Assembly (NCBI GenBank): GCA_031285565.1
Contig: JAITVY010000079.1
Location: 1 to 64,000, forward strand
Length of the DNA: 64,000 nt
Origin: Tannerella sp.
GTDB taxonomy: Bacteria > Bacteroidota > Bacteroidia > Bacteroidales > Tannerellaceae
Direction: 5' to 3'
In this document: positions 18,665 to 53,191 of the stretch, one piece after another
Numbering within the stretch: position 1 is the first letter of the stretch
Layout of the letters: every line of letters begins with the position of its first letter
Program-made: the position numbers and the translations under genes
Notes under the pieces: model-generated
Database searches by the model: none
The model's input: the letters and a program-made list of their open reading frames with translations, nothing else
What the model was told of the DNA's origin: nothing

Positions 18665-19294
18665 ATGGCTGAATATCAAATGCAGGAAATGAACCTACCT
18701 GATAAAGATGGAAAAAGGGTTCTTTATCCGCGTATTATTCTGAGTCAACGGGTAGATACAGCTTCTATCGCAAAGATGTTATCGCAAAGTACAACATTCA
18801 CAGTTGCAGAAGTAATCGGGCTGTTGCAAGGACTGGCAGATCAAATATCAAATCAAATGTCATATGGCAGATCTGTTAAACTAGATGGAATAGGTACTTT
18901 TACTCCTTCGCTGACATTACGCAAAGGGAAGGAGCGGGAAACCGGTGAAGAGGGTAGTGTAAAAAGAAATGCACAAAGTATTAGGGTGGGAGATATTCAC
19001 TTCCGGCCGGAAAAAACGTTTATTAGTAACACAAACCGGCAATGTGTGCTTGAACGTTCACAACATAGATTTGTACGTTCTTCACAGAAGTACACGCCTG
19101 ATCAACGATTGGAGATGGCACGACAATATCTTTCCTCGCATCCTTATTTAAGGATTGCCGATTATGCTGCGTTGACCGGTCTGAGACATACTGCTGCATC
19201 TCTGGAACTCAAACAATGGAGCAGGCAACCGGAGAGCGGAATCAGTGCTTCAGGACGTGGTACACACAAAGTATATATAATGGTAAGTGATTAA
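18665..19294 (+). CDS. HU/IHF-like DNA-binding protein (HU-HIG type)
   Basis: 209 residues. The N-terminal ~120 residues match the HU-like domain of Bacteroidota, with a dimerisation helix region (TFTVAEVIGLLQGLADQISN) and the beta-arm core VKLDGIGTFTPSLTLRKGKE. The C-terminal ~70 residues (TPDQRLEMARQYLSS, ADYAALTGLRHTAASLELKQ) form a separate helical unit that looks like a winged-helix or wHTH fold. It should bind and bend DNA, perhaps with site preference from the extra domain. Tandem 21-bp palindromic repeats lie directly upstream and suggest autoregulation or a dedicated target. The inverted copy B of the 110-bp repeat overlaps its stop codon. Confidence 0.8.
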   Translation: MAEYQMQEMNLPDKDGKRVLYPRIILSQRVDTASIAKMLSQSTTFTVAEVIGLLQGLADQISNQMSYGRSVKLDGIGTFTPSLTLRKGKERETGEEGSVKRNAQSIRVGDIHFRPEKTFISNTNRQCVLERSQHRFVRSSQKYTPDQRLEMARQYLSSHPYLRIADYAALTGLRHTAASLELKQWSRQPESGISASGRGTHKVYIMVSD

Positions 19295-50654: not shown

Positions 50655-51104
50655 GTGTTTGATAGCCCTGATGATCACTTTGACGAAAACAGCCATAAGG
50701 TAAATATTAATCTGGCAAAGGGTACTTTGCTACGTGATACGGAAAAACGGGTGCCGGTTGAAAAGATAAATATATCCAGTCCACAACCTCGCATCGTTGA
50801 AATAAAAGATATTTTCTCTGGGAAGAGAAACGAGTTGCTTACTTCAAACGGAGCGGTAATTATACGGGGGCACAATATTAAACTAACCGGCGATGACCCA
50901 TCGTGCGGACTATGGTTTGTGGGTAATAATACTGAAATTAAAGCTGAAATTATTTCTGAGAATAAGCCATCGACACTTATAGCTGTTATACCTACCCTGG
51001 AAAAGGGACAATATCAATTAAAGGTTGTTACACAATACTCATCCAGCAAAATGCTGAAAACGACTAAAATATGTGTGTATCCGGTTGTTTTGACGGTATT
51101 ATAA
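50655..51104 (+). pseudogene. 5'-truncated HU/DUF4469 DNA-binding protein relic
   Basis: The readable frame starts GVFDSPDDHFDENSHKVNIN, which matches the middle of Bacteroidota HU-like/DUF4469 proteins just after their HU DNA-binding domain. It continues through the Ig-like DUF4469 part (GAVIIRGHNIKLTGDDPSCG), including the diagnostic DxPSCGLWF. A TAA at 50649-50651 interrupts the frame, with NSI readable before it, and the ~90-residue HU domain is missing. It is therefore a decayed gene. It is the only + strand gene sequence within the right-hand - strand block. A unique array of tandem palindromes begins 49 bp after its stop. Confidence 0.75.
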
Positions 51105-51152
51105 AAAACGATATAGTGGATAATGTCAATATATGCAGTGGTGAGTGGTCTT

Positions 51153-51237
51153 CTTATCAGCTGGTAAGATGGTAACTCACCATATGGTAAGATATATTCT
51201 CACCAGCTGGTAAGAGCCTATCTTACCAGTTGATAAG
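51153..51237. repeat. Four 16-bp palindromes at an exact 23-bp period
   Basis: The units are CTTATCAGCTGGTAAG (51153-51168), CTCACCATATGGTAAG (51176-51191), CTCACCAGCTGGTAAG (51199-51214) and CTTACCAGTTGATAAG (51222-51237). Each is a near-perfect dyad of the form CTyAyCAnnTGrTAAG. The 7-bp spacers differ (atggtaa, atatatt, agcctat), so the palindrome, not the spacer, is conserved. This looks like a cluster of protein-binding sites. Confidence 0.9.
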
Positions 51238-51260
51238 ATTATCACATCCGGTAGGGTATT

Positions 51261-52569: not shown

Positions 52570-52920
52570 TTATTTTAAGCTCTCTAATTCATGCTCTATA
52601 GCTTGTTTTACAAAACTGTTTAGGCTTTGTCCGATTTTTTTTGCTTTCTCTGATGCTTTAATATGTAAATCTACACCTATACGGATATTAAAACTTCCTA
52701 TATTGGGTTTTTCTGGCTTTATTCCTTCTTGTTGACAGTCATACAAATAATCGTCCACAAATTGTTTAAAATCAGTTTCCAGTTCATCTAAAGTACGACC
52801 TTCGTAAATATATGCCCCTTTTATGCCTAAGAGTTTGCCATATAGCATTTTACTTTCAAGATCGTACTCTATGCTTCCGTAATAACCTTTATATGTTAAT
52901 ATATTATTGTTCTTTTTCAT
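52570..52920 (-). CDS. hicB: HicB-family antitoxin
   Basis: 116 residues. The N-terminal partial RNase H-like HicB domain (YKGYYGSIEYDLESKMLYGK, IYEGRTLDELETDFKQFVDD) binds and blocks the toxin. The C-terminal ribbon-helix-helix-type domain (FNIRIGVDLHIKASEKAKKI, SLNSFVKQAIEHEL) binds operator DNA. It overlaps the upstream toxin gene by 17 bp, a standard hicA-hicB arrangement. It should repress its own promoter, where a 17-bp palindrome (53221-53237) is present. Confidence 0.9.
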   Translation of the reverse strand: MKKNNNILTYKGYYGSIEYDLESKMLYGKLLGIKGAYIYEGRTLDELETDFKQFVDDYLYDCQQEGIKPEKPNIGSFNIRIGVDLHIKASEKAKKIGQSLNSFVKQAIEHELESLK

Positions 52921-53191
52921 CTTCTTCCTTTATAATTAAGTTACATTCATCTAATATACTTTTTATAGCCTCCAATATATAAGGTTTAAGAATATTGCCC
53001 GGATGAGGTTTGTGAAATTTGATAATATTTAATGGGTAGCTTTCGTTTCGAAAGCGAACTCGTGAGCCACTTGTTTTACCAGTCTTTACTTCATAAAACT
53101 CAAAATCATTCAATAATTTAACCATTTCATTAAAAGTAAAATCTTTCGGCTGGTTCAAAAAGTGCTTTAATAGTTTTTCCTTTCTACCCAT
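52904..53191 (-). CDS. hicA: HicA-family toxin (mRNA interferase)
   Basis: 95 residues, slightly longer than the minimal ~60-residue HicA. The double-stranded RNA-binding-like fold is recognised by SGSRVRFRNE and the catalytic-His motif IIKFHKPHPGNILKPYIL. HicA toxins cleave mRNA and tmRNA in the cytoplasm when not held by HicB. It is the first gene of the module. The predicted transcription start almost coincides with its ATG, suggesting a leaderless mRNA. The module sits within an otherwise glycan-related block, probably as an acquired element. Confidence 0.88.
   Translation of the reverse strand: MGRKEKLLKHFLNQPKDFTFNEMVKLLNDFEFYEVKTGKTSGSRVRFRNESYPLNIIKFHKPHPGNILKPYILEAIKSILDECNLIIKEEDEKEQ

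Follow-up and report, generated by a model that had tools for sequence, protein, structure and literature searches.

The closest description that we found to the repeats reported here, as far as the accessible text of the paper goes, is that of BrickBuilt, a MITE of Porphyromonas gingivalis with 23-nt units that occurs in 19 places (PMC4596501). The same text cites 41-, 23- and 22-nt tandem repeats in strain W83, and lists the gene adjoining BrickBuilt_14 as a DNA-binding protein (PF00216). Among the papers that a full-text search brought up on DUF4469, PF14734 and PF14848, only a study of Treponema denticola was relevant, which describes TDE_2259 as a protein with PF14848 and PF14734; the accessible part of that study makes no mention of repeats at TDE_2259 (PMC12724145). 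The literature on tandem palindromes, minisatellites and HU proteins with repeats contained no such link between a gene and an array among the matches listed, and the link reported here is new as far as these searches go. The only solved chain matched by sequence was PDB 4fmr (E 8.6e-26 with the protein of L195), deposited as an uncharacterised hypothetical protein (L- and G-numbers are our labels for loci and genomes).

The window analyzed here is a stretch of 64,000 nucleotides from Tannerella sp. It had been predicted to contain four palindromes with a 23-bp period, and this was confirmed by a pattern search, in which CTYAYCANNTGRTAAG matched with no mismatches at 51153, 51176, 51199 and 51222, giving an array (A1) of four units at steps of exactly 23 bp. 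When one flanking base per side is counted, the units are 18 bp long with 5 bp between them, and were placed by pattern and pairing, without a strand, at 51152..51169 (unit 1), 51175..51192 (unit 2), 51198..51215 (unit 3) and 51221..51238 (unit 4). Self-complementary pairs number 7/8 in units 1–3 and 6/8 in unit 4. Unit 1 is preceded in the 23-bp register by a degenerate half unit (51130..51145, no strand), with the right half TGGTGAG and 1/8 pairs left. A1 is the sole stretch of the window with a self-similarity of at least 0.65 at lags 22, 23, 41 or 44 (0.70 at lag 23). Loose single sites (≤3 mismatches) were not enriched across the window (30 observed versus 31.6 expected), and so the array, not the single site, is the signal. 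A1 is not a CRISPR, having a step of 23 bp with 5–7 bp between palindromes, as opposed to unique spacers of about 30 bp.

A1 is directly preceded by the relic of an HU-DNA_bdg/DUF4469 gene (50655..51104, + strand), which ends at 51104, 47 bp before the first unit at 51152. The relic matched PF14734 with E 1.7e-25 over profile positions 1–98 of 101, and PF14848 (HU-DNA_bdg) over profile positions 86–121 only, with 18.2 bits, below the Pfam cut-off. DUF4469 has thus been kept and most of the HU domain is gone, leaving no complete HU-like domain, in agreement with the original prediction of a truncated DUF4469/HU gene beside the array. Between the beginning of the relic ORF and that of a GH97 gene on the opposite strand there are 163 bp. 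A HicB/HicA toxin-antitoxin pair lies near A1 (52570–53191, Pfam). The window also contains an HU-HIG gene (match 18668–19054, stop at 19294), at which no array was found in the lag scan. A1 is a decayed example of a widespread layout, in which an HU-like gene is directly followed by a private array of palindromes at 23-bp steps. What the window retains is the relic of one such gene with its array, and the array is decaying.

Searching by the letters of the palindrome, the route first proposed for finding further arrays, succeeded within the same genome and failed beyond it. BLAST revealed a second array (A2) on contig 64 of the genome, with five units of the same palindrome family at exact 23-bp steps and 18/23 letters in common with the A1 consensus. 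No HU fragment was found within 900 bp of A2. With A2 as the BLAST query, 99 relatives gave no match at E 0.001. A pattern for two adjacent palindromes gave 19 loci in GTDB contigs, from which the source genome is possibly absent; none had the 7-bp gap, and none was accepted as a relative of A1.

A TetR-type operator pair was considered for A1 and rejected, since CTTACCANNTGGTAAG sites adjoin TetR genes in other bacteria and Pfam found no TetR gene among the scanned neighbours of A1. Among the 19 loci, several Proteobacteria and one Microthrix have pairs of CTTACCANNTGGTAAG-like sites beside genes that read as TetR (L020, L025, L027, L029, L033, L034 and L036); at L020 and L029 alone, Pfam confirmed TetR_N. 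A glucuronate-operator role for A2, near which uxuA-type genes lie, was dropped because arrays occur in many surroundings. A Halanaerobiaceae contig, also among the 19 loci, contains seven palindromes at exact 21-bp steps (L023:3511-3652) within an ORF without a Pfam match, recalling by analogy the origin iterons inside a replication gene. The 19 loci further include palindrome arrays with a 42-bp step in two Bacteroidetes (L035:3849-3948 and L037:7146-7287); the former precedes the gene for a DEAD-box helicase that has a DbpA domain, and the gene downstream of the latter has a similar-looking start.

A sequence-only profile of A1 and A2 brought up arrays in the same genus and family whose palindromes are spelled differently. 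With a base-pair model, arrays were detected in 14/41 genomes of the genus at E 0.1 (one of which, G030, with period 42 inside a long ORF, looks false) and in 14/121 of the family at E 0.01. Among 294 further genomes of the order, for which the number of candidates scored was far smaller, one had an array at E 0.001. The absence of other arrays from relatives, which was to have spoken for a chance local expansion, is thus clearly contradicted. Pairing holds for 90.5% of cells in the model alignment, and 13/24 pairs have changed on both sides, compared with at most 47.6% pairing and at most 5 two-sided changes in a slid-partner control, the pairing figures being favoured because the structure was derived from the same sequences. 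The earlier proposal that constraint lies on the dyad and the period rather than on the spacer is supported, and it is the layout that has been conserved, with different letters in the palindromes.

Unit statistics were obtained for 47 arrays, after 54 array places had been fetched (G031:C110, G031:C183 and G058:C6 were not) and 7 unclear ones omitted. The best period was 23 in 41 arrays, 22 in 3 and 20.5 in 3 (41, with two alternating palindromes), a tally biased by the 23-bp search model. As a lead, the 22-, 23- and 41-nt classes of P. gingivalis, so far as they are described in the accessible text, match these periods. A model-free scan of 271 kb of G104 revealed 8 arrays, 6 of them at period 23, with arms mostly unlike those of the model. 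The same scan gave one array at 23, one at 21 and a chance-like one at 48 in 244 kb of G016, and only a chance-like match at 58 in 382 kb of the genome studied here, including the window, A1 being too decayed for the threshold. No arrays were found in shuffled sequence.

The 54 array places comprised 23 tandem, 10 divergent and 9 convergent gene pairs, and 12 with one side open. This resembles the background (30, 14 and 13, respectively), and a terminator or promoter role was rejected. Control of the next gene was also rejected, as genes downstream of arrays (41 on the same strand versus 22 on the opposite) and upstream (25 versus 13) showed no bias.

Comparison of the neighbouring genes showed DUF4469 homologs at five arrays (the window, L103, L113, L117 and L130). 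An HMM added L111, L105 (a fragment) and, from the contigs sampled, L195 and L175, all of which directly precede an array or palindrome. A search for DUF4469 alone gave 140 matches in 29 of the 41 genus genomes, with up to 13 per genome, and none in 14 control genomes. The domain was present in 13 of the 14 genus genomes with arrays.

Genes were then scored by a lag test covering 250 bp past the stop codon, in which any lag from 15 to 45 was allowed and the self-similarity threshold was 0.65. In a first set of 50 genes, 48 from the genus and 2 from G104 (same family), 46 passed downstream, 45 at lag 23 and one at 22, compared with 0/46 upstream flanks and 0/50 shuffled sequences. Leaving out six genes met via arrays (the window, L103, L111, L113, L130 and L229) gave 40/44. 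Dropped from this set were L226 and L247 (ORF open at the end), L228 (no ORF hit), L200 and L241 (<80 bp downstream), and L207 and L214 (the same genes as L195 and L103). A second set was chosen from the DUF4469 list blind to arrays (40 loci, minus L306 and L310, which are open, and L309 and L314, which are short). Here 33/36 genes passed, 32 at lag 23 and one at 44, with 4/29 upstream. Both sets together give 79/86 genes with an array, at lag 23 in 77/79; the 7/86 genus and family genes below the threshold include L211, the second DUF4469 gene of the Tannerella genome studied here. A palindrome-chain test gave 32/51 downstream, 0/47 upstream and 6/549 for other genes. The letters of the palindrome vary from gene to gene, and the consensus units show moderate dyad symmetry, averaging 14.4 of 23 against 12.0 for shuffled ones. 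In G015, eight array places accompany one DUF4469 gene, and the arms following that gene are different ones.

Within this genus and family, the link between array and gene is close to certain. The earlier hunch that arrays sit beside HU-like genes is borne out by 46/50 and 33/36 of the DUF4469 genes, and the accompanying statement that nothing in the annotated genes explains the array does not hold, as the adjacent DUF4469/HU gene does so.

Elsewhere in the order, 18/28 genes passed the lag test (two of the 28 belong to the same family), 12 of them at lag 23, with 3/25 upstream. One of the twelve, L268, is probably a simple repeat, and the remaining 11 are from six families; several order genes have downstream only what looks like a plain terminator. 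In Parabacteroides distasonis TSDC17.2-1.1, in contigs filed as plasmids, lag 23 was found for 5/6 of the genes found and lag 24 for one. The single HU-DUF4469 gene found on a Treponema saccharophilum plasmid, in another phylum, also has lag 23. A peptide-pattern search of IMG/VR for HU genes gave none, and in a phage collection two unannotated records matched, one with lag 23 at 0.59 and the other without an array. As side observations, the HU-DUF4469 gene of L324 (P. distasonis) is annotated as two overlapping ORFs, with an array at lag 23 after them, and those of L259 and L263 are flanked by ORFs that look by eye like Cas6.

HU-HIG (PF18291) genes were picked as a control. Of 30 loci, 28 were entered (L351 and L354 have stops) and 26 had at least 80 bp downstream. 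Five weak matches resembling ordinary HU were set apart, and none of these had a downstream array. Among the HU-HIG loci L328–L350, a downstream repeat was present at 15 of the 21 clear genes: 6 had lag 22, 5 had lag 44 (twice 22), and the remaining lags were 41, 23, 45 and 29, with some of the 15 resembling repeats of another kind. Of the upstream flanks, 4/21 passed, 3 of them at lag 22. The difference in step between HU-HIG and DUF4469 genes indicates that the step follows the protein class, which favours a lattice set by the protein.

To relate protein to array, full-length proteins with a 23-bp array were compared (55 and 32 genes, at a pair identity of at least 0.5). Once the remainder of the protein had been corrected for, identity within a loop of seven DUF4469 residues (220–226 in L230 numbering, after TTQ and before LLKEPR) predicted how similar the units were (first set: 207 pairs, partial r 0.44, p 0.001). 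The result was repeated with new genes (partial r 0.49, 80 pairs containing a second-set gene, permutation p 0.001). All loop p values are from label permutation, which ignores phylogeny. For first-set and new-gene pairs, respectively, no significant association was observed for HU residues 1–120 (−0.01 and 0.12), residues 227–232 (−0.11 and −0.06) or residues 233–243 (0.08 and −0.08). Residues 227–243 are closer to the array in the DNA, and their lack of signal argues against simple linkage or gene conversion. A weak signal from blocks 121–135 and 136–155 (p 0.026 and 0.018) was confined to the first set and not repeated.

The loop association persisted without similar-unit pairs (0.37) and at identities of 0.5–0.7 (0.39), and was absent at protein identities of 0.3–0.5 (r 0.04, p 0.14). 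Among pairs with a loop identity of at least 0.7, 15/40 were alike in at least 15 of 23 unit letters, compared with 4/129 at a loop identity below 0.3. Among all 7-residue windows, starts 216–223 ranked top. For positions chosen beforehand, p was 0.035 in the 54 pairs formed solely by new genes and 0.0005 over every pair with a new gene, and only those in the loop ranked high again; the complete DUF4469 domain showed no enrichment among the new genes (p 0.29, and 0.88 for new–new pairs). The proteins of L229 and L204 are about 85% alike, and about 90% when their last 45 residues are disregarded, with unrelated units (11/23, equal to background), and the window unit shares 11–12 of 23 letters with the units of its five nearest protein relatives, also at the background level.

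We propose, with a probability of roughly 0.7 judged from sequence comparison, that the array belongs to the preceding gene, and that the encoded protein binds its own array, with the loop reading the palindrome. The HU-DUF4469 protein would bind as a dimer on double-stranded DNA, its HU-like domain gripping or bending the DNA without reading letters, and one variable loop of the Ig-like DUF4469 domain reading the palindrome, a role that is predicted and likely. Adjacent dimers would touch, holding the step at 23 bp, and paralogues would drift to new pairs of loop and palindrome and so remain separate. On this view, every such protein would recognise the array of its own gene as duplex DNA, at intervals that the protein itself dictates. 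We count the putative protein binding of the original prediction as supported on these grounds; its RNA-hairpin option was not supported.

An RNA reading, in which successive hairpins in the 3′ part of the mRNA stabilise the transcript or end it, would suit the position just past the stop codon and the foldable palindromes, in which 13/24 pairs of the model alignment change on both arms. RNA hairpins would, however, favour G-U, and the sense-strand mismatches of 95 gene-linked arrays comprised 138 G-U versus 163 A-C and 185 others, A-C being no rarer. The missing G-U excess, together with the occurrence of arrays at large in every gene orientation, suggests that the dyad is probably read in double-stranded DNA. 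Hairpins, moreover, require no exact 23-nt step and do not account for the association with a protein loop, which makes this reading highly improbable. A neutral minisatellite, in which slippage builds the array, template switching between arms restores the palindromes, and the gene is a bystander with no binder, draws on varying copy numbers and on inverted centres in some units (9/328 flagged, L111 being the clearest and several doubtful). In published work, so far as its accessible text goes, template switching between inverted repeats homogenises arms, inverts spacers and keeps hairpins paired (PMC8604942, PMC8794818). Such a process nevertheless leaves unexplained why the arrays lie just 3′ of the stop codon of one gene family (79/86), why the step is constant at 23 bp despite unrelated letters and different for HU-HIG, and why the units are associated with a single protein loop. 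We regard it as quite improbable.

The arrays without a gene bring in another reading, in which the gene helps to spread the repeats in the manner of a RAYT/REP or MITE element and the gene-less arrays are dependent copies. In four genomes (G000, G021, G104 and G016), gene-less arrays share a palindrome family with a gene-linked array; the cases are A1 with A2, L103 with L102 and L104, L130 with L129 and L131–L133, and L111 with L110. In G104, L176 and L177 keep the last 29 residues of an HU gene beside the array; this array recurs at L160 with about 70 bp of that flank, beyond which L160 and L177 differ. At L327 (P. distasonis), gene and array lie on the opposite strand inside an ABC transporter cluster, as if inserted. 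Weighing against mobility, the proteins scanned contain no nuclease or transposase domain, an HU fragment (E 1e-3) lies within 900 bp of only 2/53 gene-less arrays, unclear ones included, and no 9-mer is common to the flanks of more than 8/62 arrays. A mobile element as the full explanation is unlikely, and it can be compatible with binding of the array by its protein; the gene-less arrays may be broken copies of gene plus array. The flank motif TTATCCCGAACTCAGG was considered as a MITE end and rejected, being present at some arrays only. A further intergenic motif, TTCTTATCCCGAACTCAGG, is repeated near some arrays (flanks of L086, L091, L129 and L171), in both directions in L086 and L091.

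More tentatively, and with less than even odds, HU-DUF4469 and HU-HIG proteins together may form a repertoire of DNA readers, each with its label beside the gene, the lattice being set by the class (23 or 22 bp) and the letters by the loop. If so, the set of readers could tag, pack or silence DNA that carries a matching palindrome, acting either as elements that mark themselves or in defence against mobile DNA. HU-type proteins, which are mostly non-specific DNA packers, would gain sequence-specific members. Burroughs et al. (Cell Cycle, 2017) reportedly found HU-type proteins to be expanded in Bacteroidetes and proposed a role in conflict with mobile elements. The uncharacterised DUF4469 would gain a testable job, with the seven-residue loop as the candidate DNA-reading part, and the many natural pairs of loop and array could allow a recognition code to be worked out. 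Binding of this kind is also a possible account of junk-looking 22- and 23-bp palindromic repeats in gut and related bacteria.

RAYT is a Y1 transposase acting on single-strand hairpins, and the RAYT/REP (BIME) system resembles the arrays described here in that a protein gene is flanked by its own palindromes, with more copies elsewhere in the genome. Here, in contrast, the protein combines an HU domain with an Ig-like one, and the step of the array is constant at 23 bp; Pfam found no Y1 transposase beside the A1 palindromes, the adjacent protein being DUF4469/HU. BrickBuilt, like the arrays here, is dispersed and intergenic, with tandem 23-nt units, and the accessible text mentions short stem loops derived from dyads (PMC4596501). 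Compared by its description in that text, BrickBuilt differs in having a leader, a tail and IS5-like terminal inverted repeats, and is known from P. gingivalis and P. gulae. No cognate gene is proposed for BrickBuilt in the accessible text (PMC4596501), whereas the arrays here follow HU-DUF4469 genes, with letters that vary between genes.
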